Of a stretch of 64,000 nucleotides of DNA, positions 2,511 to 58,904 are shown in pieces. Below the pieces are notes generated by a model, which did no database searches, had not been told where the DNA came from, and saw nothing but the letters and a program-made list of their open reading frames with translations. Positions within the stretch are counted from its first letter, which is position 1; each line of letters opens with the position of its first letter. The stretch spans positions 50,852,774 through 50,916,773 of the forward strand of contig OX104112.1 in NCBI GenBank assembly GCA_944474755.1, given 5' to 3'. This stretch comes from Limnoperna fortunei (Eukaryota > Mollusca > Bivalvia > Mytilida > Modiolidae). The translations under genes and the position numbers were made by a program.

Positions 2511-2825
2511 TCAAAATAATAAAGGGTACAGATGTAAATCCATCGACTATTTTAGGAAAAACTGTGTCACAGACTGGCCATACTTGGGGTTTCTAAGGCT
2601 AAATGAATTGTATGTTCCTGCTACCAAACCTAAGAAAACTAGGGGAGATATTTGAGCAAATATTTTAATACCATGGGTTACTGGGGAAGCAATCTGTACT
2701 TTGACGGTACTTGTTAAAATTTCAATAAAATGTGTACAACACTGGATATAAAATAGCATGATTTAGCATGCAACATCTTGTTTATCTAATATGAATAATG
2801 AGATTGCATTTACTTATCATTTCAG

Positions 2826-3336
2826 CAGATATGTCACCAGGAAAGAGTATAACCAATTACAAGATTATTGCAAAAGGTTGAGAGAAAAGATTAAAAGATT
2901 AGAACGCAAGATGGAGAAAGTTGAAAATCCGAGAACTGAAGAACAAAGAATTGAGAAGACGCCCAGCAAAATAAATGAGAAGACTCCGAGCAATATAGAA
3001 ATGGAAATAATTCGTGAAGATAAGTCGGACGTCATCTTATATAATGGTTATAGCATGGACAATTTACAAGACTCCATATCTCACTTAGACCGACTTTATG
3101 ATGCAGTTAACTGTCTTCTTTTGAAACTATTCCCAAAAGAATATATTCTGAGCCATAGTGTTTCTGGGAAAAGTGGCAATTCAAAACTTAAACCAAAGTC
3201 ACAGTCTGATCCAAGATTGTATTGTGCAATGCTGTTAGTCATCAAGAACAAATTTAGCAATGCTACTACAAAAGACATCACTGATCGTGTACACTCTGTT
3301 TCAAAAAGTCTTAAACGTGGACTATTAAAGCAATAA
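2826..3336 (+). CDS. Terminal exon: coiled segment plus BEN-type domain
   Basis: This 170-codon open exon ends in TAA. It starts with a basic, Leu/Lys/Glu-rich segment likely to form a coiled coil (LQDYCKRLREKIKRLERKM). After a Thr/Pro/Ser linker comes a domain of about 90 residues with the BEN pattern: hydrophobic CLLLKLFPKEYILSHSV, then DPRLYCAMLLVIKNKF, then a basic end near SKSLKRGLL. BEN domains bind DNA or partner proteins in animal chromatin factors. An AATAAA (3332-3337) overlaps the stop. If the upstream repeat exon is untranslatable, an ATG at 2791 could start a short protein through the intron-exon boundary in the same frame. BEN assignment is by eye. Confidence 0.55.
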
Positions 3337-19464: not shown

Positions 19465-19773
19465 ATGACAAATATTATATAACGCAATAAAACACGTGGA
19501 ATGTGAAAAAATGCTTCGTGAATACATAATGAGAACATCAAAGAATGACTTTCTGTAAAGATAAAAGAAATGCAAACATCAGGAAAAACTAGCAAATTTT
19601 TATATTATGCATAAACCCAAAGAATAAAAAGGGCAATATCCGAGCCATTTCCTTTTGGAATTTGTACACATTACTCTGACATAAAAGTGTCTTTTTTTAT
19701 AAAAGTGTCTTTGCACATTTTTTTGCAACATTCATCATTGCTTAAAAGGGATTTCTTTATTAGTAAGAAAATG

Positions 19774-19911
19774 ATATTATAGGATTATTGCATGAATATT
19801 GGAAAATATTGTCCCAAGCAAGTGTTATATTGCACGAGCTTGCAAGTGCAATATATCATCTTGCGAGGGACAATATTTTACAATATTCATGCAATAACCC
19901 TTTTATTATAT
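19774..19911. mobile_element. Fold-back element FB5 in copy A
   Basis: Arms 19774-19834 and 19847-19911 pair (ATTGCATGAATATTGGAAAA / TATTTTACAATATTCATGCA; GTTATATTGCAC / GTGCAATATATC). The loop is GAGCTTGCAA-like. Shorter ORFs across it are artefacts. Confidence 0.8.
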
Positions 19912-20468
19912 AGTTATAAGTTTTTGTACTTTTTAGTGTTTATTAATTATCTTAAGTTTGCTATTTATTTTAATGTAGATTTACATATAATAAAAACTCA
20001 TTTTTTTTTGGTCAATTTTGTGTTTTTATTTGTTGCTCCTTATTGTTGTAAATATATGGTACATACTCGAACTTCAGCGATAACCTTTCATTCGGCAATG
20101 TAAACAATGGTCCCAAGGCTAAATTACTTTTAAAATATCTTGCATTTATTGCTTTAGCCAAATGACTCCTAAATAATGAAATACAATACGTTTCAGCGAA
20201 ATTAACGTTCGTTAAAGCCACACACTTTCTTCGCCGAAATTCGAGTGTACTACTACTACTAGTAGTAGCTCCTGCTTTGAAACGAGCCACTTGTACACGA
20301 TATTTAAATCCAGTTTTGTACAGTTTTCACTTGATTTGTTCCTTTGTTGGCCTATGAAATTGAATTCACTTCCATTTGTTGAGTTCAAGCGGTTCTGCTA
20401 ATTTAACCCTCGAGAGCAGATCATGTATGTCACTTTCGGCCATGTTTGTTTACCAAACAACAGTAAAA

Positions 20469-20476
20469 TATAAAAG
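20469..20476 (+). promoter_or_regulatory. TATA-like box, copy A
   Basis: TATAAAAG about 630 bp before the copy A signal-peptide ATG. It could serve a promoter with a long or spliced 5' leader. Only the motif and its conservation in copy B support it. Confidence 0.2.
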
Positions 20477-21098
20477 CCGATGTTCGGAACACATCTGTAC
20501 TTTTCCGGGAAATTACATAAAAGGCCGGGATTCAGTGTAAAATATGACAATATACTGCACTTTATTGCTATATGAAATACAAAGGGGAAAAATATTACTA
20601 TATAATAAATATTTTTATTGAACTATTTTATTTACGAAAAGCTTCGACAAGCCGTTTTCCGCCAACTTAAACAATTTTCATAGATGGCGCTGTTTCGGGT
20701 CTATTTATGTATATACACGATGCATCGTTTCTTCTGCTCTTAAACTAGCGCCCTTGACCACAATGCCAAGCTCGCTAAATTAAACATATTCCGTAACTTT
20801 ATGACATTTGTTTGAAGATCGACTATGACAAAGTATAACAAAATGGTTGCTTTGCTTTAAATTTATTGTATTTTAAGGAATGTCATTCATTAAAAACTAA
20901 ACGGAATAAAGTGTGAAACAAAGTGTATTGTCGAATATAAAAATTCATGTTTTAGTTGTACGGAAATGTTTTTTTTCAGAGGAAACAGGATGTTAAAGAC
21001 TTAGTTGTTCATTATAATTAAATAATGTATTTGATGCCAAATTCAAATTCACAGTATTAGTATTAAGAGTTTTGTTATTACTTATTAATCTGCAAGCC

Positions 21099-21147
21099 AT
21101 GGATTTGCAAGTTTTTGTACTTACATTTTGCACGTTTGTTTTAAGAG
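21099..21147 (+). CDS. Alternative signal-peptide exon (copy A) of the Ig receptor
   Basis: ATG at 21099 opens MDLQVFVLTFCTFVLR, a short hydrophobic signal sequence, and the exon ends before GTAATT in phase 1. The 49-nt sequence is the same as in copy B. Spliced directly to 23266 it would give the same protein from an upstream start. Whether it is transcribed is unknown. Confidence 0.45.
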
Positions 21148-21586
21148 GTAATTTTATGTTTTTAAAACTTAGTCAAATGAATGTCCATACTTAAACAAAG
21201 GTAATTATTTTTTTTACATTTTGTATTTATTAATTTATCAAATTAATTTTGTTTTTAAAATTTTGATATGACAAATATTATATAACGCAATAAAACACGT
21301 GGAATGTAAAAAAATGCTTCGTGAATACATAATGAGAACATCAAAGAATGACTTTCTGTAAAGATAAAAGAAATGCAAACTAAAAAGATCATCAGGAAAA
21401 ACTAGCAAATATTTATATTATGCATAAACCCAAAGAATAAAAAGGGCAATATCCGAGCCAATTCCTTTTGGAATTTGTACACATTACTCTGACATAAAAG
21501 TGTCTTTTTTTATAAAAGTGTCTTTGCACATTTTTTTGCAACATTCATCATTGCTTAAAAGAGATTTCTTTATTAGTAAGAAAATG

Positions 21587-21724
21587 ATATTATAGGATTA
21601 TTGCATTAATATTGGAAAATATTGTCCCAAGCAAGTGTTATATTGCACGAGCTTGCAAGTGCAATATATCATCTTGCGAGGGACAATATTTTACAATATT
21701 CATGCAATAACCCTTTTATTATAT
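21587..21724. mobile_element. Fold-back element FB5 in copy B
   Basis: Same element as at 19774, carried along by the tandem duplication (offset 1813). The left arm has one change (GCATTAAT for GCATGAAT). Confidence 0.8.
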
Positions 21725-22281
21725 AGTTATAAGTTTTTGTACTTTTTAGTGATTATTAATTATCTTAAGTTTGCTATTTATTTTAATGCAGATTTACATA
21801 TAATAAAAACTTATTTTTTTTTGGTCAATTTTGTGTTTTTATTTGTTGCTCCTTATTGTTGTAAATATATGGTCCATACTCGAACTTCAGCGATAACCTT
21901 TCATTCGACACTGTAAACAATGGTCCAAAGGCTAAATTACTTTTAAAATATCTTGCATTTATTGCTTTAGCCAAATGACTTCTAAATAATGAAATACAAT
22001 GCGTTTCAGCGAAATTAACGTTCGTTAAAGCCACACACTTTCATCGCCGAAATTCGAGTGTACTACTACTACTAGTAGTAGTTCCTGCTTTGAAACGAGC
22101 CACTTGTACACGATATTTAAATCCAGTTTTGTACAGTTTTCACTTGATTTGTTCCTTTGTTGGCCTATGAAATCGAATTCACTTCCATTTGTTGAGTTCA
22201 AGCGGTTCTGCTAATTTAACCCTTGAGAGCATATCATGTATGTCACTTTCGGCCATGTTTGTTTACCAAACAACAGTAAAA

Positions 22282-22289
22282 TATAAAAG
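22282..22289 (+). promoter_or_regulatory. TATA-like box, copy B
   Basis: TATAAAAG identical to that of copy A, about 630 bp before the copy B ATG. Same caveat: recent duplication means its conservation says little about function. Confidence 0.2.
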
Positions 22290-22912
22290 CCGATGTTCGG
22301 AACACATCTGTACTTTTCCGGGAAACTACATAAAAGGCCGGGATTCAGTGTAAAATATGACAATATACTGCACTTTATTGCTATATGAAATACAAAGGGG
22401 AAAAATATTACTATATAATAAATATTTTTATTGAACTATTTTATTTACGAAAAGCTTCGACAAGCCGTTTTCCGCCAACTTAAACAATTTTCATAGATGG
22501 CGCTGTTTCGGGTCTATTTATGTATATACACGATGCATCGTTTCTTCTGCTCTTAAACTAGCGCCCTTGACCACAATGCCAAGCTCGCTAAATTAAACAT
22601 ATTCCGTAACTTTATGACATTTGTTTGAAGATCGACTATGACAAAGTATAACAAAATGGTTGCTTTGATTTAAATTTAGTGTATTTTAAGGAATGTCATT
22701 CATTAAAAACTAAACGGAATAAAGTGTGAAACAAAGTGTATTGTCGAATATAAAAATTTATGTTTTAGTTGTACGGAAATGTTTTTTTTTCAGAGGAAAC
22801 AGGATGTTAAAGACTTAGTTGTTCATTATAATTAAATAATGTATTTGATGCCAAATTCAAATTCACAGTATTAGTATTAAGAGTTTTGTTATTACTAATT
22901 AATCTGCAAGCC

Positions 22913-22961
22913 ATGGATTTGCAAGTTTTTGTACTTACATTTTGCACGTTTGTTTTAAGAG
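22913..22961 (+). CDS. Exon 1 (copy B): signal peptide
   Basis: 49 nt encoding MDLQVFVLTFCTFVLR and the first base of a Val codon completed at 23266 (GTT). Start chosen because it is the only ATG before a hydrophobic run that splices in frame to the first Ig exon. Confidence 0.65.
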
Positions 22962-25900
22962 GTAATTTTATGTTTTTAAAACTTAGTCAAATGAATGTCC
23001 ATACTTAAACAAAGGTAATTATTTTTTTACATTTTGTATTTATTAATTTATCAAATTAATTTTGTTTTTAAAATTTTGATTTAACGTTTTAATCTGATGA
23101 CACGTGAATTTCACATTTGAAATTTGTTATCTTTTGACTTATGGCATAAAACGCAGTTTAATCAGGAATAGTATGACTGTAATTACATGTAATTACTAAA
23201 TCAGAATAGTTTTCTCATACCATAACACAAATATTTTATATTTCTCACTGTATTTGGTTTTATAGTTTCGACAAAACTGACAACTGGCAACTGGACAATT
23301 TATAGCAACGATTTGATATCAGTGTCAGGAGCAACAATACAATTTTCTTGTCCAGTAAATTGTACAAAACTTTTACCAGTATGGTCTTTACATGGCTATG
23401 TTTTATCCGATGGCTTAAAGATTAATCCAACTGTCATACAAAGAGCCCGACTCAATGTGAAGCAAAATTGTAGCGAACAAACAAACAATCTGGTGATTTT
23501 CAACATAACTAAAAGTGATAAAGGAACATACTGCTGTGAAGAAAGACAAATACGGCATTGTACCGTTTTAGAACTAACTGGTAAATATACTGTCTTTTAT
23601 TATTTTTTCTTAATGTTAATATATATCGTGTAAATATATAGATACTTTATGTGATTAAGCTGTTCAAACAACCACCATTCATTATTTAATGCTGCTCCGC
23701 TGGAACAGATGAAAATTAAAAAACAAAATTCTATTTATTTACAATTTATATTTTTGTAGATTTAATCATTGAAAAAGATGAAAACAGCACAATACATGGC
23801 GTGGAGGGAGAAAACTTCAGTCTTTCTTGCTTTTTTACAAAAGCTATCAGAGGAGTTCATTTAAAAGTGGTCAACAATCATTCAATTGTTGAATCAAGTA
23901 CATCTCATCGATTAAATGTTACCTTGAAGGCGACGAAGGAGCTACATCGTAAACAATTTACGTGTGCAGCTGTATTTGATGATATGGAAATATCACTGGA
24001 GAGAAATATTACACTAAACATTACTTGTAAGCATTACATGTTTGTTGAAAAATCAAGTAGTTTAATTTATATTTTTAAGTGTCTGAAACATTATTTAAAT
24101 TGATTTTCCTATAGTAACATTTTGCTACTATTTCATAATTAGTTTTCAATAATTTAATTTTTTGTATTCATGAAAGACAATAATCGATTAATTATATTTG
24201 CATTATATATTCTTTATAGATAAGCCAAAAATCACGATCAAGGTATTGCCTTTTTCTTATTTGACTGTTGGTGACAATGCAACATTTATTTGTTCATCAG
24301 ACAGTAATCCGAATCCGATTTCTATATTTTGGAAAAAGGATGGACGTGTCGTGTCCATAAAAGACACATTTGTCATGACTAACATTGCAAGAGCTGCCAC
24401 AGGACAGTATCAATGTATTGTTGACAATGGAAAATTTGTAGGAGAAGGCAGCATCCAAATTTTTGTTTCGTGTAAGTTAGTAAGAGAGTGTCTGTTAAAA
24501 TAACTTTAAAAGCGCCACTAACTATTTTTATTGACACTGAGTCTGATTATTGCTAAAAAAAATATTGTTGCAGAGAATGTGTTCGATTCATTTCTGCCAG
24601 TCTTACAGTAGACTAACACCGACCAAGATTTTTAAAAACGCTTCCAATTTTTGAAATACAGTCATGACAGTCACACATAAACATATTATAAAAATTCGTA
24701 TTTGATTTGTGTATTTTGTACATTTTTGATGTATTTTTTCCGTTAAAATTTAAGACACCAGGAAATGAAATCAAAATTAAAAACATTTAGCATATATATA
24801 AATGTTTGTACTTCCTTAATAATGTTGCAAATAAATGTGCAATCAATTTTTACACCATATTTATTAAAAACCGGACAGGATAGTTACAAATTGTGCATTA
24901 TTAAACAACATTCTTTAATATGTACGTATCCTTTCAGAAAATACTTCATTGAAAATTGTGTGTGAAATATATTCATGAATACACAGACATGTCTTGGAAA
25001 TATATTGCCACATTTAATTTATTTCTTACAACGTACAGAATATGAACACAAGTGTTCGTCACTGGTATAAAAATGACCTAATTTCTGGTTTGGTAGAATA
25101 TAAGCATCTTTTGTCGTCTGCTATTGTTTTGGTGCCACGTGAATGTTAAAAACGTGCTCGTACAGATGAATAAGTAATTGAAAAGTAATACATAAATATC
25201 GAGGATTTTAAACTACCAAGAACTACAATATTAAGCGTCATTACGAAATGCTACGAACATGGAAGTGTTGAAAATCGTGCTGGAAAAATATGTGTTTAAG
25301 GACAAATATTAGAATAAGCTTTCGCGGGAATTGAGAAATAATGGGTCTTATGAAAAAAAATAAGTTAGGTTTTTAAATATATATTTGACAATTAAAAGTC
25401 GAAATATAGTTTCAAAAATTGAAAGTGACCATCAACTATGTACGTGCACTGTAGTTTAATGAAAATACAAATTAGTAAATACGAGGTTTCAAATACGACT
25501 AAATCACAAATATTTTAATAAAAAAATATAATCGTTGTGTCTAATACACCATATTTAACAGCTGCTTACAATTACCTAAATCGCAGAAAGTCTCTGTGCC
25601 TTATGATAGATAATGATTATAATGTAATAGAAAAACACAAATAGACAAATACACACATATCTTAAGTAAAAACGAATTTGACGTTTTGACTGATGCAACA
25701 GACTTTGGAAACGACTATTAGACACTGTTTTTTCCTTTGTTTTCATTGTTTTTGTCTTGTTTAATTTTGTTTTATTAAGTTCTTTGTTTCAATAAAAAGA
25801 TATTTGATTTTATTTTTGTACATTAAGTTGTGCAGTTATTATCGACATTCTTTGTCCTGAATACATCAACAATAATGTTTTAATCTCTCCGGCTATCAAA

Positions 25901-27778
25901 ATCCTAAACACATTCTGTTTTATAAGTTTCCAAACAGTGGCTTTATTTGTTCTAGTCTAAGATCATATTTATTTTTAACTTGTTGTTAATGCATCTTTTC
26001 TTTAGTGTGTCATATAAATACATTAAATGTTGTTTAAGATAAGCTTGTAGTCAACATCATCGCTTCACCAGGAAAAAAAGTTACAGAAGGAAACAAGTTA
26101 ACAATGGCATGCACGCACGACAGCAATTTACATGCATCTATAACGTGGATCAGGCATGGTGTATCTGTTTCAACAAATCAGGTCCTGGTGCTACATGAGG
26201 TTTCGATGAACGACAGTGGATTGTATCAATGTATTGTGAACACTACTATTGGCTACGGGGCGGATGCAATAAGCATTTTAGTGTTATGTAATACATGCAT
26301 AATATCTTTTATCTTTTTTTAAAATAACATTTGATTCAATAACTAAGTATCAACAAGAATAGAAATAATTTGTGTTGTGTACATTTACTGATTGTTACGA
26401 TATTTAATAGACACACAGATACCAGTTAAACTAATATTAATAAAAGTTAAGCAATCTTAGAGATATCCACATGTCTAAAACAGGTTAATTTATATTATGA
26501 TACTCTTAATTTAAATAACTGTAACATGACTTTTATGACTTTTGCAGCGCTGAGGTTTTATGATAAATAAATGCTAGATGAAATTGTTTCTTTATTTTGG
26601 TATAGTTGTCCCTTCACTATGACCGGTTTAGTTGGTATGTTGTATTACCTTTTTTAATTATTTTGTAATCATTATTTTGTTTAAGACGATAATAAAGAAG
26701 ATGAGAATGGGGATATTTCAGTCAGTGAAAATGTAAGAAAAGGTAAAATATCGTAAAAGTGAATATCGTACAAATTCTGTTTATTAAAATAGTTGATAAA
26801 AGTTGTGTATTTAATTTAGCACATAAGGTGTATGCTGCGATTGAAGATTAATATGTTTTGAAAAATTAAGTGTTAAAATATCATTTAATATCATTTGCAA
26901 GGCAATTTGCAATATTGAATATATGGTGAAAGGGTTGTTTGAACAACTTGATACATATATTTTTTTCAACTTTCTTATCTGTCAAACTAAAACTGACTTT
27001 CGCTTTAATTATTGAAACATGTTAATTGCTCTAAATATTTTGTCGGTTTATATTTATTAAAGACCCTTACACAACATTTGTGCACATTTATTACAACATT
27101 AAATATTGTTTGCATGACATATTTTTGCATCTTTTATTAAAATGACGTGCATTTAAAAATATAAGGGAAATGAATAAATGTAGCCATACCAAACATTATC
27201 ATTTCAGTATAAGTTTCATTCTTGTTTCAGAAATGGTATATTACATGGTCGCTACATCTGTGATAGTGTTACTTTTATTAATAACTTGGAAAGCATTTAA
27301 GCACTGCAAGTCCAGAGGACTGGCAATAGAGATAACTAATGACATTGGTCGAATGGAAAATACAAATCATGAAACAAATGAAAGTATCCAAATGATCGAT
27401 GAATCAAATATGCAACATGAAGACGACAGATCTTCAAACTACGAAAGAATTAATGAGAACGAAATGCTTCCACTTTCAGGCTTGAGCAATTTAGTTGTTA
27501 TTGAAGGGGACGTAAAAGATGACATATCAGAAAATGGGGACGGAGAAAGCGAAATATACTCAACTTCCTTGTCATCTGACAGTGAACCTATATCAGACAC
27601 TGCAACTGAAAGAAACGGACATGAAGTATTTGAAACAACTAATGACGGAGGTTCATCGGACAATTTCGAACTTACAAGCCCTATGGCAAATGAATGTAGA
27701 AATCCATATATACAGTTGATTAGAAATGAAATGGAGTATTTAAATAGTTATAGCGCACTTCGAAGACTGCATAACTGA
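22913..27778 (+). CDS. Four-Ig transmembrane receptor with ITIM-like and ITAM-like tail
   Basis: Seven exons join without a break: 22913-22961, 23266-23580, 23760-24026, 24220-24471, 26051-26287, 26686-26742 and 27231-27778 (TGA). Every intron is phase 1, the class typical of shuffled Ig exons. The 1725-nt reading frame gives 574 residues: signal peptide 1-16, Ig1 about 17-121, Ig2 122-210, Ig3 211-294, Ig4 295-373, acidic stalk 374-392, membrane helix about 394-412, cytoplasmic tail 413-574. The tail has SNYERI (Tyr463, fits S-x-Y-x-x-I) and YIQL...YSAL (Tyr552 and Tyr566, ten residues between), resembling ITIM and ITAM signalling motifs. It should sit on the cell surface; an immune or adhesion role is inference. 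No close named family member recognised. It has a broken paralogue at 45217-51601. Confidence 0.8.
23266..23580 (+). CDS. Exon 2: first Ig domain, cysteine-rich
   Basis: 105 codons. Core Ig features are SGATIQFSC, a Trp in LLPVWSLHG, and SDKGTYCC (D-x-G-x-Y-x-C). Extra cysteines in CPVNC, the second Cys of YCC, and IRHC could add disulphides. The same cysteines occur in the decayed paralogue. Two or more N-x-T/S glycosylation sites (NWT, NCT, NCS, NIT). Acceptor TTTTATAG, donor GTAAAT. Confidence 0.8.
23760..24026 (+). CDS. Exon 3: second Ig domain (no core Trp)
   Basis: 89 codons, phase 1 both ends. VEGENFSLSC and RKQFTCAAVF supply the paired cysteines of an Ig fold, but the usual Trp of strand C is absent (VHLKVV at that place). 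Short C2-like domain; several N-glycosylation sites (NFS, NVT, NIT). Donor GTAAGC. Confidence 0.7.
24220..24471 (+). CDS. Exon 4: third Ig domain, I-set-like
   Basis: 84 codons. VGDNATFICSSDSNPNP, ISIFWKKDGRVV and ATGQYQCIVDNG give cysteines, Trp and G-x-Y-x-C in the right order. It aligns well with the paralogue exon at 46441-46691 (FWKKDG / TWSKDG; QCIVDNGKFVG / RCFVDNGKFYG). Donor GTAAGT. Confidence 0.8.
25207..25300 (+). mobile_element. Tc1-like transposase N-terminal relic in intron 4
   Basis: Reads FKLPRTTILSVITKCYEHG then SVENRAGK, the helix-turn-helix block of Tc1-like transposases (compare 'R.Tv..Ii.kY...GSVenr.g'). Only about 30 residues survive, flanked by AT-rich intron. Confidence 0.4.
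26051..26287 (+). CDS. Exon 5: fourth Ig domain
   Basis: 79 codons: EGNKLTMACTHDSN, ASITWIRHG and MNDSGLYQCIVN complete a compact Ig domain. It lies after a 1579-bp intron, the longest of the gene, which holds a Tc1 relic. Acceptor CTTGTAG, donor GTAATA. Confidence 0.8.
26686..26742 (+). CDS. Exon 6: acidic membrane-proximal stalk
   Basis: 19 codons, YDNKEDENGDISVSENVRK, phase 1 to 1. The acceptor is TTTAAG with a moderate pyrimidine tract. Because the exon is symmetrical, skipping would shorten the stalk without shifting the frame. Confidence 0.55.
27231..27778 (+). CDS. Exon 7: transmembrane helix and signalling tail
   Basis: After CTTGTTTCAG it reads MVYYMVATSVIVLLLLITW (helix), a basic stop-transfer patch KAFKHCKSR, then an acidic Ser-rich tail. 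Tyrosine motifs: SNYERI, EIYSTS, NPYIQL and SYSAL. YIQL and YSAL are separated by ten residues, within the loose ITAM spacing of 6-12. Ends RRLHN and TGA; AATAAA follows 84 nt later. Confidence 0.8.
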
Positions 27779-29625: not shown

Positions 29626-29651
29626 TTTATGTATTTACATTCTTTTCTCAA

Positions 29652-34054: not shown

Positions 34055-34290
34055 TGCGCGTCTACTATTGATCACGTGGTCTGTCAAAAATGAGGTTGCG
34101 GGTTCGAGTCTCACTGCGGGCAGTGTGTATTTGACTCCAATCTAAATTGATAAGGATTGCCAGTTTTCCTAGTGAAGGTCTGGGTTCTCTCCGGATACTC
34201 CGACTTCCTCCCTCTATAAAAACTTGACGCCATGATATAGCTGAAAAACTGCTGAAAATGGAGTTAAACATCATTTAAACAAACAAACAA
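34055..34290 (+). mobile_element. SINE-A copy, head truncated
   Basis: Starts inside the tRNA-like head (CTACTATTGATCACGTGGTC), keeps GAGGTTGCGGGTTCGAGTCT and the middle TGATAAGGATTGCCAGTTTT, and ends GAAAAACTGCTGAAAATGGA with (CAAA)n. Confidence 0.75.
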
Positions 34291-37200
34291 TCTATTATTG
34301 AATAGAAGCCGTTAGTGTGCGCTATCAGTACCTTTCGTGCTTTAAAATTTTAGATTATCTCGCTGCCGGAGGAGCTATCTCACCCTGGGGGTATTTAAGG
34401 AATTGCGGCGCGAAATGTCATTCTTTTTGAACGCTGTCACCTGCCTGATAAGATGCTTTTCGCATATTGCACATAGATTTAAAAAAAATGCTTTCATACA
34501 AATAAATTTTCAATTGTACAAAATAATACAAGGATACAACTTTATTGAATATACAAGAATACAAGTTTATTGGCTAATTCTGGGCCCTCGAGGGGCAAAT
34601 ACAGCGCAACATATATGATTAGTACAGTACATAAATAACAAAGATACTAAATGGCATTCAATGGCAAGCAAATAATATTTAAAGCGAATGGGAATTGGGG
34701 CATCATCGCTCTTAATAAATTTAAACGGAACATAGCTTAACATTCCAGTACACAATTTATTTGTAAACGTTTATCGTGTAACAAATAAATGTATTGTTTT
34801 AAATTTACGCCATTTACTCAAATCTTACAAACCACGTGGACACGATAACAATATTTGCATCTTTTTCTTTCATCGTCTGACAATATCAGGTTTAAACATA
34901 GTGAACAATATCTAACGCAGCTGTAGAACTTGAATGATGTACAGTATTTGTTAAACAGCATGAAAGTTGAATATTTTACTACCTAGACTAAATAATAAAC
35001 ATGAGTTTTTCATTCAAAATATAGTGACACAATTTAAGCTTCTTTATATTTGTAAATATATTGACCACTACCATGTCCAGAAGACGAAACAAATAGCCTA
35101 CGCTACCCCACCACATGTACAAGTCTGAAGCTGCAGACCGCCCCTCCCCCACCTCCCGTTATAGAGAAAGAGACATTATACATTAGCTGAAACACCGATG
35201 CCAGTGTCGTTACCAAAACATGCTGAAGTGCGCATGAAATGATATCCCACAGAATGCAACTGAGTTTCATCCCAATAAACCGGCAGGTATAACAATTTTG
35301 AATGTGTGCCCAAAAGCAACCTACATGCATATGTACTCAATCTTTTCAACGTCAAAATGCTCAAAGTAAAAATATTATTATTGTAATTTACTTGTCCCAC
35401 AAATTGAACAGTGCCAAACTTTCATGTATAGCTAAGTGTGAATGTTTCAGAAGTGATGAAAAGTAAAATCACTAACGGGTTTGATTTGGCCAATCTCCTT
35501 GATACAAATCGACCATCGCCTAAAGAAGAAATGATAGATGGTATTTTGACTGCCAAAATAAATAGTAAACCCCATTGAAAAATTCACAGATTCTTTTCTA
35601 GTCTTTTCTAAAATATATATCCTAGTATTAACCCCCCCCCCCGAAAAAAAGTATAAAATATGGGTGCATCAGGCATGTGTGGTCAGGGTTGGAAAAAATA
35701 TGACCAACAGTTCAGGTTAAAAAATGGCATTTGAACCAATCAAATAGTGGCATGAAAACGTACAAATTAGCACCTACAAAACATGAAGGCAATAATTTCT
35801 TTTATAAGGGTTATGAAATAAAAACGTTATATAATGCTCACTACTGGATCACCCCCTAGAAATCAGCTGCAGCTTGTGGGCCTGTCGTGTTACCATCGAA
35901 TACCAAATCAACACTTTTCCACTGCACCCCGAAGGAATTGGTCAAAGCTTTCAGGCATCTAGATCTTTTTAGTATTAGAAAATATAGCAAATTTCACAAT
36001 CAAAATTGAACCATTAATTTAGGATCTTGAGACATATCCGCATAAACAGAACCCCACATCATAAGTGTGCATATTAACATGAAGTAGAATTGATTAAGTT
36101 AAATAAACTAATAGACCTAACTGGTATACCGGGTCAACAGAATTCTTTGCCATTGTATTACCAGTATGCATTGTACTAAAATCTGACCGGATACCTTGGA
36201 GGCATATTACACATTTGTCTTGCCCCAAATCTAGTGGAATAAATGATTATATTGATGTGAATTTTGCTGTGCTATCCTGACAATTTTGAGGTGCTTGGTT
36301 TTAAAATACAAAATTTTAAAGTTCTAAAGAATAAATTCATCAATGTGTCAAAATTAAAAAATGTAAAAGCATGAGACACGTTAAAAGGTAAATGAGTCTG
36401 CATACTTTTTATGTATCAATTTGCCAATCGACTGCTCGATATTCTGTAACTTATTTAATTAGATAAATTCTCTTCATTTTGTAGGAAAAAAATCTGGTTT
36501 CAATATCTTCGATCACTATCTAGAAAATTTAATTCATTCTGGTAAATGTGGATCAAATCGCTCTAAACATTCAAGGGACTGATTTGTGAATTCCATCTAA
36601 AATTTTGGGTTTTCTATTAGCACTAGATACGTCTACAAGGCCAGCCACTGTCCAGAAAATTGTAGCAGGACACCGATGAAATAAAATTCTTCATTAGAAA
36701 GTAGTCAATTTAACTAAATGTTAGTGTTATGTAAACCAAAAACAGAAATAAACCGGGAGAACTGCAGTCTTGAGTTGTGTCTCTAAATTTTGTCTCAACA
36801 GCTAAAAGATGCCTATGGCCTTTAACATGTGCTGTTCTTAAAAATCGTTGTCAAATAATCTTTAAAATGGATTTGCACATCTTGGCCAAAATCATGGCAG
36901 GGCAGCAATTTACTGTTCCATAGTTTATTCATGTGCATACTTTTGAACTTGGGACCTCTTGAGGAACAAAAAGATAAATATTAACAATTTAGGTCTAATG
37001 GAAATTTGAACAGCCAATCCTCAAAACCAAAAAAAATTGTACATCTGATGCGAATTTTTTTCTTACATTTTAACTCATAATATTATATTTTGTGCATATT
37101 TAATGACAAAAGTGATGCCGTTTCTCAACAGCATTGGACCAGATTCAGGCGGTTACTACCAGATGCCAACCCAGAACCAGAACAAATGGCCAAACATTTT

Positions 37201-37925: not shown

Positions 37926-38070
37926 GCCATTCAAATACAGAAACGACTAAGGGTCGTTCATCTCGTACAAGGGATGTATACGTTAATGAAATATTTGTGT
38001 AGATTATTCATTAGTATGGGGTTTAGTATCATTAATTGTTACAAAGAAATTTCCTCACTCCAGAGGTAGA
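37926..38070 (+). repeat. 145-bp direct repeat, copy 1
   Basis: Starts near GGCCATTCAAATA(C/A)AG and contains GAAACGACTAAGGGTCGT, GGGATGTATACGTTAATGAA and GTTACAAAGAAATTTCCTCA. The same blocks occur at 38780-38924 with about 10 percent differences. A SINE begins right at its 3' end. Confidence 0.85.
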
Positions 38071-38072
38071 TG

Positions 38073-38319
38073 CTTGTTTGTTTGATGGTATTTAACGCCA
38101 CTTTCAGCAATTTTTCAGCTATATTATGGCGTCCAGTTTTTATTGGTGGAGGAAGCCGAAGTATCCGGATAAAACACCCGACTTGCGGTAGGAAAACTGG
38201 CAATCCTTGTCAATTTAGATTGGAGTCGGGTACACCCTGCCTGCAGTGAGAATGTAACCCGCAATCTCAGTGTTGACAGACCACGTGATCAATAGTAGAC
38301 GAACTGACAACGGCCTCTT
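38073..38319 (-). mobile_element. SINE-A copy between the two direct repeats
   Basis: Minus strand, head GAGGCCGTTGTCAGTTCGTC (slightly truncated), ATTGCGGGTTACATTCTCAC, middle TTGACAAGGATTGCCAGTTT, tail AAAAATTGCTGAAAGTGGCG and TTAAATACC(ATC)AAACAAAC-like end. Confidence 0.8.
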
Positions 38320-40889: not shown

Positions 40890-41370
40890 GTGAACAGAGC
40901 TTGAGTCAGATAGCACAACACTTTGGCATTAACTTTAGTATTGTATCCCGGATACTGTAACGTCATCAAGATGATAGAACTATCCAGAAACATCCCAGTT
41001 TAGATCGACATCAAAAAACATCTGAAAAGGAGAATAGAGCATTCGTTCGTGTAGCCAAACGTCAACCATTTGCCACTGCAAGATATCTTCGTGACGATTG
41101 GACTATTGCAACCAGAGTTGCCGTTCAAACAGTTAACAGGCGCCAAAACAATGCAAGGTTGAGAGCTCGTCGTCCCTTGAAACGTCCACTGTTGACACAG
41201 AGACATCGACAAGCTCGTTTAGAGTGGGCACGATATCACCGCCATTGGAATATTTGAAGCTGGAAACGAGTACACAGGATCGACGAAGCAGATTCCTTCT
41301 TTGTCATATTAATGGTCGCATGCGCGTTTGGAGACGATGAGGCACTGCTTACAACCAGAACAACATTATA
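40890..41370 (+). mobile_element. Tc1-like transposase relic, DNA-binding part
   Basis: Starts with a helix-turn-helix SLSQIAQHFGINFSIVSRI, then frames through KENRAFVRVAKRQPFATARY, VAVQTVNRRQNNARLRARRP, LLTQRHRQARLEWARYHRHW and the end HINGRMRVWRR. It stops where the previous relic's conserved part would continue. Stops at several points. Confidence 0.75.
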
Positions 41371-44300: not shown

Positions 44301-45216
44301 ACAATTTAAAAATACATTGACTGCGGAAAACATAAGTCTCTCTTCACGTTACAATAACGTTTGACATACAGATTTCTGCATAAATCAAGATGACTGCGAC
44401 CAATTACATATTCACTATCAGTATGTGTAGAAAGTTCCTATTGCATCTGTAACTATACAAATACTACACTTGCTTTTAATCCTTCCAATATTCTGAATCT
44501 TTTACTACAGCGAAACGAAAAAAAAAAGCATTTGCAAACATATCTGGTTAAAATATCATTTAAAATAAACCACACAAAAACTTGTATACAGATATATAAA
44601 GGACTTTTTTTAAAAATATAAATAGCGAAAAGTGATGGCCAAATAAGCGCAAAAAACTGTTGCTCAGATTCTTTTTACCGTAATGTCTAAATAGTCCTTA
44701 TGTTATTATATTAATATGTGCTAAATTTTGAAAAAAAATTGCATCAGGACGGAAAACATGTGTAAATGAGATCAACAATAAACAACCATTGTAGGAGTTT
44801 TCAATTTAAAACAATATTATGAATGAATGAACATTTGGTTTTGATAAGGAAACAGATAAAAACAAAAATATCCTTTAGGCATTGTAATTATCGATTTTCC
44901 ATTTTTCCAACACTGTTACATTTTTGTATTTTCATGCGTTGAACACAGACGCAAAATCGATAGAAAATAGTTTTATATGTGTCTGTGTAAGGGGATTTTG
45001 AATTTTTAATCTTTAAAACGTATTGTTTTGATAGCAATCAAACATGTACCACGAGTACATTTCGAGTTCACTTTTTTACACAAAAGTATTGATATTAATA
45101 TATCTTTACACAAGCTCATTTGAAAAAGAATTGTTTTTAATCTTAGAAGTTCAAACTATGCAAGACGAGGACAAGGAAATGATTACTACAAATAAACTAG
45201 TGAAAAATATTGTATA
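41371..45216. other. Long intergenic block, nothing recognised
   Basis: AT-rich, no supported exon or repeat. ORFs at 41517 and 43700 are short and without motifs. Confidence 0.4.
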
Positions 45217-45590
45217 ATGACATATTTTGGGTTAATTTTAACAATAAATATGTTGGTTAATGAAGGAAAGTCATCCGGTTACTTACAATCAGTGCTTAAT
45301 AAAGAGGAAGTTTTTTCTGTCAGAGGGGCAACAATTTCCTTTTATTGCATGATAAACTGTACTAATATTCCACCAACAAAGACTCGGAAAGGACAATTTT
45401 TAGCTACAGGAAACAAGACAAGTGGATCAAATAAACAAAACACCAGGCTGAATATTACACTTGTGACGACCAAAGATACACTATGAAAATATACAACGTG
45501 ACAAAAGGTGATGAAGACAAATATTGTTGCGATTTTATTTACAACAATGTTCCTGCACAGCATTGCAATAAACATAAACGCTCACCTTTA
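45217..45590 (+). pseudogene. Signal peptide and first Ig domain, frameshifted
   Basis: MTYFGLILTINMLVNEG runs straight into SVRGATISFYCMINC without an intron, matching the intact gene's signal exon plus Ig1 residue by residue up to the first cysteine. After NTRLNITLVTTKD a single-base deletion near 45474 moves the frame; the other frame continues YTMKIYNVTKGDEDKYCCDF and NNVPAQHC. No donor is visible after it. Confidence 0.7.
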
Positions 45591-46440
45591 TTAGGATGTT
45601 TATTTGCTTTAAATATGATTATTACGACTGAAAGTAGTCGGTGGAGATAAGCATCTTATCCAGCACTATAATCGTCGCTGAACGTTTGTTTGACTCTTTC
45701 AAATTAAACATTTAATCTAGGTGTATTGTACAATTCTTTGTATATGCCATATAAACCGATATGAACTAAGTAAACATACATGCTTTATAAACACGCAAAT
45801 GGAAAATAACGTATGTTACAGCAAATAAATGTAAATCAATGATTATATAAAATGTAAAAATTGGCCGTGTGTAATACAAATTGATGTATTATTCACACAG
45901 AATACGATGTTCTTATAACAACTGAATCCAATACTTTATATGTTAAATGTGTAAGAATTTCTGTGTATAATACTTATATTTGCTAATCAGATGATTCTTT
46001 CACAAGAAACGGGAGTACACTGCACAAATTTAAAATTCTTACATCTTGTTACTTGGTGATATTTCACAGTTTTTAAGAGTGTTTTCTATAAATTTTTTAT
46101 AACAGTACAGACGAATGACAACACAATTCATGCTAATTAATAAACAGGATAGTCAAAGCCAATTTATTATGGATATATACTAACATAAAGACTCATTTGC
46201 AGACCTCTAAAGGGTTTGACAGAGGTTGTCTCATATGTAAAGCGGTAATTAACAATAGCGATTTATATTTACGAACAGGTGCTATGATGGACGTTGCTTG
46301 TAAGTTTAAAGAAAACTGTGTTTCAAATTGTCAGTTACACAAAATGATTACAATTTGATGCTCGCTGTATCCCATAATCTTTCATAAATTGTTCTTTTTG
46401 TTACTCAAGCTGTATTACTTAATGTTTGAGTTTTTTTTAG

Positions 46441-46691
46441 ATAAGCTGTCAGTAGAAGTAAAAGTATTGCGAAGTTCAACCATTCCAGAAGGTGAATATT
46501 TATCCATATTCTGCTCCTATGATAGTAATCAACATCAAGTCAACATTACATGGAGTAAAGATGGCTTATTTTTGTGTAGAAACTCTATTGTATACATTAG
46601 AAATGCTTCGAGAACTGATGCCGTTATTTATAGATGTTTTGTCGACAATGGTAAATTTTATGGATCAGCAGAAAAAACCATTACTGTTTGA
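46441..46691 (+). pseudogene. Third Ig domain exon with terminal nonsense codon
   Basis: The acceptor TTTTTTTTAG precedes AT-AAG-CTG, same phase as exon 4 of the intact gene. It reads VEVKVLRSSTIPEGEYLSIF, NITWSKDGLF and IYRCFVDNGKFYGSAEKTI, then GTT-TGA-T|GTAGGT where the intact gene has GTT-TCG-T|GTAAGT. Apart from the TGA it is intact. Confidence 0.75.
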
Positions 46692-46959: not shown

Positions 46960-47195
46960 ATTAGGGTTTCCAACCTACTACACCTTTTAGTACTGTGGAC
47001 ATAATACTGCAGATGGAGAACATATACGAATTCTTACCAAAAAGTGTAACAGTATGTTAGAATTTAGCAATATACTAATACTAATCCAAAATATGAAATA
47101 ATTGGCAGATATGTATGTAATGTAGAAAATAGTAATGCCGATGTGAAAGGTCGTCAAGTGCAAATTGCGAATACATATGTTTTTATGTGGGGTAA
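46960..47195 (+). pseudogene. Ig domain remnant
   Basis: Its end reads GRYVCNVENSNADVKGRQVQI, the strand F-G of an Ig domain, preceded in another frame by LEFSNILILIQNM. Two frames and a TAA in between show decay. By position it could be the fourth Ig domain. Confidence 0.5.
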
Positions 47196-50425: not shown

Positions 50426-50720
50426 AATAACAAAGAAGTGGATGTATGGACAAAAGTGTAATCCTTACAGTGCAAGTTTACAGCTCAAATGTTTCTGGAT
50501 TTTGTTGGTGGAAAGAAGATATACGGCTTAGAAATACACCACAATATACCATGTCAAAATATGAGAATGTGATGCCAGTTAAAATGTATGATAAATATAT
50601 TATAATTCAATATATATTCAATTGGATTGAAAATAAACCAACTAACGGACAACGATACTCAATATACAGTCACAATTTACAGCGAACTTGGAAACAACAA
50701 ATGCATGTTGAAATTATTTA
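50426..50720 (+). pseudogene. Ig domain remnant, frameshifted
   Basis: After GTTTATAG one frame reads VILTVQVYSSNVSGFCWWKE (cysteine, Trp of strand C), while the end in another frame reads TDNDTQYTVTIYSELGNNKC. Together they outline one Ig-like domain of the I or C2 kind. Not clearly matched to a particular domain of the intact gene. Confidence 0.45.
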
Positions 50721-50899
50721 TGACTGGTATGATTTAGCGGCTTCGTTATTTTAAGTTATTTAATGTTTTGTCGTTTGAGAACCTATAACATTTTAACCTA
50801 ATTAACTTATTTTTCGTTGGTTAAAAAATTAAAATATTTAATTTCTTTGTAATTGAACATTTGTTTAAGAAGTAAATTAATTGCAAAACAAAAACTACG

Positions 50900-58637: not shown

Positions 58638-58894
58638 GGGGGCCTCGGTGGCCAAGTGGTTAATGTAGTTGGCCTACTATTGATAACGTGTCTGTCAACA
58701 CTGAGGTTGCGGGTTCAAGTCTCACTGCGGGCAGGGTGTACTCGACTCGAGTCTTAATTGACAAGGATTGCCAGTTTTCCTACCGAAGGTTAGTGGTTCT
58801 CTCCGGGTACTACGGCTTCCTCTCCAATACAAAACTCGACGCCATGATATAGCTGAAAAATTGATTAAAGTGGCGATAAAATTCATTCAAACAC
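58638..58894 (+). mobile_element. Full-length SINE-A (tRNA-headed) with 10-bp target-site duplication
   Basis: The head GGGGGCCTCGGTGGCCAAGTGG holds an A-box (TGGCCAAGTGG) and, 50 bp on, a B-box (GGGTTCAAGTCTC), so RNA polymerase III could start it. The conserved middle TTGACAAGGATTGCCAGTTT and tail AGCTGAAAAATTGATTAAAG follow, ending AAATTCATTCAAACAC. ACTTCATATA occurs exactly on both sides (58628-58637 and 58895-58904). The 3' part resembles the bivalve V-SINE group (RUDI comes to mind, from memory). Reference copy for the other SINE-A entries. Confidence 0.85.
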
Positions 58895-58904
58895 ACTTCA
58901 TATA

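Follow-up and report, generated by a model that had tools for sequence, protein, structure and literature searches.

The window (the whole 64-kb stretch of DNA analyzed here) contains, on the forward strand, a gene with the predicted anatomy of a type I receptor of the immunoglobulin superfamily (IgSF), its signal peptide and transmembrane helix being called by hydropathy only. The coding sequence comprises seven exons (22913-27778, +) and specifies 574 residues plus a stop codon, with GT-AG intron ends and all six introns in phase 1. Splicing of these exons reproduced the seven-exon, 574-residue frame with phase 1 introns claimed in an earlier note on this DNA, and recovered the signal peptide, four Ig domains, transmembrane segment and 162-residue tail of the intact four-Ig membrane receptor that it had described. 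Exon 1 (22913..22961, +) carries the ATG, in the surroundings GCAAGCCATGG, and the putative signal peptide MDLQVFVLTFCTFVLR, with a hydropathy peak at residues 5-15. Exon 2 (23266..23580, +) encodes Ig domain 1 (D1), a V/I-like domain with six cysteines (Pfam I-set, E 6e-4, below the cut-off), and exon 3 (23760..24026, +) encodes a C2-like D2 without Trp that is weak in Pfam by itself (Ig_3, E 0.18). D3 (exon 4; 24220..24471, +) and D4 (exon 5; 26051..26287, +) matched Ig_3 (E 8.5e-12) and Ig_2 (E 1.3e-10), respectively. A short acidic stalk (exon 6; 26686..26742, +) is followed by exon 7 (27231..27778, +), which holds the transmembrane helix, the entire cytoplasmic tail and the stop codon. 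The transmembrane segment (residues 394-412; 27233..27289, +) has zero charged residues.

When the window protein was compared with Pfam, its Ig domains were matched, and no sushi domain was present among the 12 families obtained at E ≤ 1. The best predicted model of D2 (pLDDT 80.8) had the Ig domains of Siglec-10 and MAG as structural matches; the predicted model of D1 was unusable (pLDDT 32.5). The similarity to Siglecs and CEACAMs is at the Ig level only. The GC content is 36% in the coding sequence versus 26% in the introns, and none of 20000 base shuffles of the tail exon kept its frame open. Compared with a paralogue at C2:51.26 Mb (contig C2), D1 to D4 of the window gene gave Nei-Gojobori dN/dS values of 0.29, 0.47, 0.20 and 0.17; on these values, the gene model looks like that of a real gene.

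Exon 1 is part of a direct 1.8-kb repeat, of which the upstream copy (19465..21267, +) comprises upstream DNA, exon 1 and the beginning of intron 1, and the downstream copy (21268..23080, +) contains the exon 1 used in the gene model. The duplicated stretch covers exon 1, its donor and ~120 bp of intron 1, and the copies are separated by 24 substitutions and 12 gap columns. The second copy of exon 1 (21099..21147, +) is identical to 22913-22961, has an intact donor and is a candidate alternative first exon; either duplicate could supply the first exon, and an alternative promoter is possible. Substitutions number 20 in the 1049 bp distal to exon 1 versus 4 in the 754 bp near it (Fisher p 0.012, with a split point picked post hoc, after the data had been seen). 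Alternatively, the repeat at 19465-23080 may be due to a haplotype mis-join in the assembly.

Within the window the tail exon was seen in the receptor gene alone, and within 100 kb on either side no paralogue was found at E ≤ 0.05 save for a decayed relic. A decayed IgSF relative is located at 45214..46688 (+), with remnants to 47170; it consists of a D1-like part, frame-shifted near 45460, and a D3-like exon, and has no tail exon. By eye, a stop occupies the expected donor after the D3-like exon and an Ig-like remnant is present near 47090. A 107-codon open frame at 50431-50754 is degenerate Ig-like by eye and gave no Pfam match at E ≤ 0.1. Other features of the window are a BEN domain open frame (2767-3336; PF10523, E 5e-6), a Tc3-type transposase fragment (40961-41257; PF01498, E 7.7e-14), a minisatellite at 513-1643 (45-bp unit, 25 copies, 93% matches) with stops in all three forward frames, and a dispersed repeat of ~230 bp (34059-34294, 38067-38305 and 58667-58896; 84-85% identity), to which further copies near 29650 and 51950 are related.

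The cytoplasmic tail spans residues 413-574 (162 residues), and we confirmed in it the motifs claimed earlier: SNYERI at Tyr463, and YIQL at Tyr552 followed after x10 by YSAL at Tyr566. These tyrosines lie in two boxes. Box 1 (residues 461-473; 27434..27472, +) contains Tyr463 and reads SNYERINENEMLP here and SxYETINExEMLP in the family. Box 2 (residues 548-569; 27695..27760, +) contains Tyr552, Tyr562 and Tyr566 and reads CRNPYIQLIRNEMEYLNSYSAL here and YLHPYxxLxxNEMEYLxSYSx in the family. Shuffling the tail 200000 times produced the ITIM pattern in 21% of cases, an ITAM-like pair (x6-12) in 1.6% and both in 0.9%; under a first-order Markov null of the tail, the corresponding frequencies were 26, 2.5 and 1.6%. 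Given these frequencies the motifs alone prove little, which agrees with the caveat of the earlier note that such short motifs could be due to chance.

We searched the host genome (1.335 Gb, 285 contigs) with the transmembrane-tail exon, which gave 25 matches at E ≤ 10 corresponding to 23 loci, the window gene included; a second query, consisting of a single distant relative's tail, brought in ten more loci. Altogether, the tail exon was found at 32 loci besides the window gene, on contigs C2, C4, C6, C7 and C8, and internal stops are present in 5 of these 32. Matches in the first search were often weak (E up to 9.8) and loci were kept once the boxes could be read in translation; the weak loci reappeared in the second search at E 0.0012 or better. 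The resulting 33-row alignment (the window gene and the 32 other loci) derives from one genome and includes near-identical copies (e.g., L039, L041 and L044), so that its rows are not 33 independent witnesses, and part of the conservation seen in the boxes reflects ascertainment, because the loci were collected by tail similarity. L031 and L046 were left out of the Tyr463 count, as an in-frame stop separates their box from the segment analyzed (both show YETI at this site), and L047, whose sequence stretch ends early, was left out of the box 2 counts; L061 has a frame shift within box 2, and the placement of its Tyr566 is doubtful. A smaller alignment, A1, comprises 20 of the first 23 loci (L031, L046 and L047 left out).

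Protein-database searches, which used at most 100 five-residue words each and miss diverged orthologues, yielded no orthologue; the best matches were contactin-6 (E 3e-6), an unnamed protein of 659 aa (E 1e-3) and a frog CEACAM6-like protein (E 8e-3). The tail alone had no match in the protein database at E ≤ 10, and alignment A1 had none in the PDB at E ≤ 1. A Pfam identity for the tail was rejected as chance-like, with a best E of 0.011 among the 20 members of A1 and no family in more than four members.

Tyr463 and Ile466 are present in all 31 scorable rows, with Ser (26), Thr (1), His (3) or Tyr (1) at position -2, and the strict ITIM pattern [S/I/V/L]xYxx[I/V/L] is found in 26 of the 31. 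In box 2, Tyr552 is invariant (32/32) and is followed at +3 by Leu (29), Met (2) or Val (1), Tyr562 is present in 27/31 rows and Leu563 in 31/31; residue 548 is Tyr in 27 of 32 rows and Cys in the window gene. Tyr566 is likewise invariant (32/32), but its +3 residue is Val (10), Leu (8), Pro (7), Ala (3) or Ile (3) in 31 rows. The earlier note had proposed to check the conservation of Tyr463, Tyr552, Tyr566 and the residue at +3 of each; among these same-genome paralogues, the three tyrosines and Ile466 are invariant, and the residue at +3 of Tyr566 varies. Among the 146 tail columns in which 20 or more rows have a letter, only five are invariant in the 33-row alignment, namely Tyr463, Ile466, Tyr552, Leu563 and Tyr566; in alignment A1 (20 rows) there are seven invariant columns, which include these five. 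On average, the majority residue makes up a fraction of 0.78 of a box column (33 columns) versus 0.46 elsewhere (113 columns).

Nei-Gojobori dN/dS of the tail against the C2:51.26 Mb paralogue was 0.09 over the 38 box codons and 0.42 over the other 124, and against the C2:50.69 Mb paralogue 0.10 in the boxes and 0.43 in the remainder; these values are rough, given a dS of 0.67-0.91 to the window gene, and the two comparisons are not independent, because the two C2 tails are close (dS 0.20). The contrast between boxes and remainder sits within one exon and, as such, is less dependent on how the loci were found. Judged from these codons, the boxes are shown to be under strong constraint. The data support the ITIM-like motif as a constrained element, and the conserved unit is better written as SxYETINExEMLP plus HPYxxLxxNEMEYLxSYS.

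The C2:51.26 Mb paralogue contains D1-D4 and the transmembrane-tail exon in the same order (BLAST identity 58, 52, 73, 78 and 54%), with AG at the expected position ahead of each of the five exon starts checked. A KEDEN...RK-like stretch was recognized there by eye as a counterpart of the acidic stalk; an exact-string look with guessed letters gave no match. At C2:50.69 Mb, D2-D4 and the tail are present and D1 is damaged, with a stop, and the tail at C2:50.73 Mb carries a stop; among the four close relatives, no damage was seen in the window gene and in the C2:51.26 Mb paralogue, in which exon 1 was not located. In the C2:50.69 Mb paralogue, D3 and D4 are separated by reverse-transcriptase-like open frames (L051, 2451-3100; non-LTR type by eye). 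In L031, a D4 remnant joins tail box 1 directly, without a transmembrane segment, in a deletion-like arrangement.

For four distant tails we inspected 5-6.5 kb of upstream DNA. An Ig exon, differing in type from those of the window gene, was found in three of these: L054 (Pfam E 9e-8, in one of three frames), L065 (V-set, E 1e-8) and L066 (E 1e-6); in the 6.5 kb upstream of L038, no Ig exon was seen by eye. The tail exon thus seems to have been kept under differing Ig ectodomains, where Ig exons and tails are presumed to belong to common genes. Stops that interrupt the tail match at five loci point to birth-and-death turnover. On the evidence of these copies, the window gene is a member of a multigene IgSF receptor family, and the tyrosines kept across about thirty gene copies suggest that this family of signalling receptors is sizeable. 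Ig_3 exons are also densely clustered in the host genome at C4:42.26-42.30, C12:40.97-41.22, C15:46.65-46.94 and C2:88.27-88.43 Mb (with scores for 150 of 2544 candidates), which suggests further large arrays of Ig genes.

The best explanation for the gene, and one that we consider probable, is that it encodes a type I receptor of an IgSF family that signals via its own tail, with the boxes docking SH2 proteins. The four Ig domains would bind ligand extracellularly, and the signal would pass through the receptor's own tail, as the uncharged transmembrane helix offers a charged adaptor no site. Src-type kinases would most likely phosphorylate Tyr463 and the Tyr552/Tyr562/Tyr566 cluster, and SH2 proteins would then bind the phosphorylated boxes: box 1 would act as a single ITIM-like site, and box 2 as a compact site with several tyrosines, similar to a standard ITAM without being one. 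Here we infer phosphorylation, SH2 partners, an immune role and the sign of the signal; this anatomy also suits a role in adhesion or sorting.

The alternative that survives best, though we regard it as unlikely, is a cell-adhesion or developmental IgSF protein without an immune role, whose tail docks SH2 or PTB adaptors; it has the docking step in common with the best explanation. The closest solved-structure sequences are those of CEA, CD22, contactin-2 and CD166, and Ig domains cannot separate adhesion from an immune role. However, many loci, decayed copies and varied Ig ectodomains would be more typical of recognition receptor families.

It is more doubtful that the tyrosines are mainly AP-2/AP-1 sorting signals of the YxxPhi type, setting surface level and endocytosis as in CD79 and TGN38, a role compatible with signalling through the tail. 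YERI (Tyr463), YIQL (Tyr552) and YSAL (Tyr566) all fit YxxPhi, which is expected by chance for at least three in 7% of cases, and the tyrosines of the CD79 ITAM also serve as AP2 sites, as described in PMC3553015. SNYERI resembles SDYQRL of TGN38, and the pattern [ST]xYxR[LI] has a chance frequency of 0.7%; this TGN38-like reading is undone by Arg465, which is private to the window gene among the 31 rows (Thr 24, Ser 3, Glu 2 and Lys 1 in the rest). Moreover, the residue at +3 of Tyr566 is Pro or Ala in 10/31 rows, and the constraint extends past YxxPhi to Glu468, Met471, Pro473, Met560 and Leu563.

Quite improbable is the dual ITIM/ITAM receptor of the earlier note, in which Tyr552/Tyr566 would recruit a Syk-type tandem-SH2 kinase. 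The window gene matches both patterns, with a spacing (x10) inside the x7-10 range described in PMC3553015, but YxxL/I is present in both ITAM halves in just 11 of 31 rows, the second half being off-pattern in 20/31. In addition, the B-cell-receptor ITAM consensus described there has Asp or Glu at -3 of the first tyrosine (PMC3553015), whereas the residue at -3 of Tyr552 is Arg549, with Glu547 at -5. The ITIM-like part of the dual claim is retained as a constrained element, and the Tyr552/Tyr566 pair is not supported as an ITAM by the family alignment. A chance origin of both matches in an acidic disordered tail, the leading doubt after the ITIM pattern appeared in 21% of shuffles, can be dismissed as highly implausible, as it is contradicted by the invariance of the three tyrosines among the paralogues, by the box dN/dS of 0.09 and by the contrast with Tyr502, which is claimed by no motif and, in a poorly aligned stretch, is private (1/29) as expected of a chance tyrosine.

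Dscam is a much longer Ig/FN3 protein. In Daphnia it has spliced tail exons, whereas the whole tail is one exon here; it is alike in being an invertebrate Ig receptor with a tail that can either contain or lack an ITIM or ITAM, as described in PMC6851185. FCRL2, FCRL3 and FCRL5 share an Ig ectodomain (four domains in FCRL2), an uncharged transmembrane segment and an ITAM-like motif plus one or two ITIMs per tail, according to the description in PMC4950983; they are vertebrate proteins, whereas the present gene is from an invertebrate and the second half of box 2 is non-YxxL/I in 20/31 rows, and they are likened by layout alone. The Botryllus FcoRs appear to be the nearest invertebrate analogue that we met. 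As described in PMC12065747, they form a multigene set (53 loci) of type I proteins of 520-610 aa with V-type and C2-type Ig domains and a long tail in which ITIM, hemITAM or core YxxI/L/V motifs occur. Unlike the window gene, with four Ig domains, and its family, with loci on five contigs, they have a sushi domain and lie in the fuhc locus (compared by description; PMC12065747). ITAM and ITIM motifs are also reported there for candidate allorecognition genes of Hydractinia (PMC12065747).

Among molluscs, PMC11999971 reviews IgSF receptors of oysters that carry tyrosine motifs, and CgIgIT, CgIgIT2 and CgSiglec-1 are similar in being molluscan IgSF immune proteins (PMC11999971). For CgIgIT2, this review gives five Ig domains, a transmembrane segment and an ITAM, although the title of the primary paper cited there describes it as inhibitory (PMC11999971). 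By description, CgIgIT and CgIgIT2 differ from the window gene in domain number, and CgSiglec-1 has two I-set domains (as described in PMC5877582) versus four Ig domains here.

It is possible, if somewhat short of probable, that the family constitutes an invertebrate KIR/FCRL-like system of 33 or more loci, no fewer than five of which are broken, with a private bipartite phosphotyrosine tail under varied Ig ectodomains. In this reading, box 2 would be a docking module of three to four tyrosines, distinct from both the ITIM and the ITAM. An invertebrate family of this size, sharing a tyrosine tail that is sharply constrained and slightly different, would offer a direct test of which parts of the tyrosine-motif code are needed, and its conserved boxes provide defined peptides for fishing out SH2 partners.
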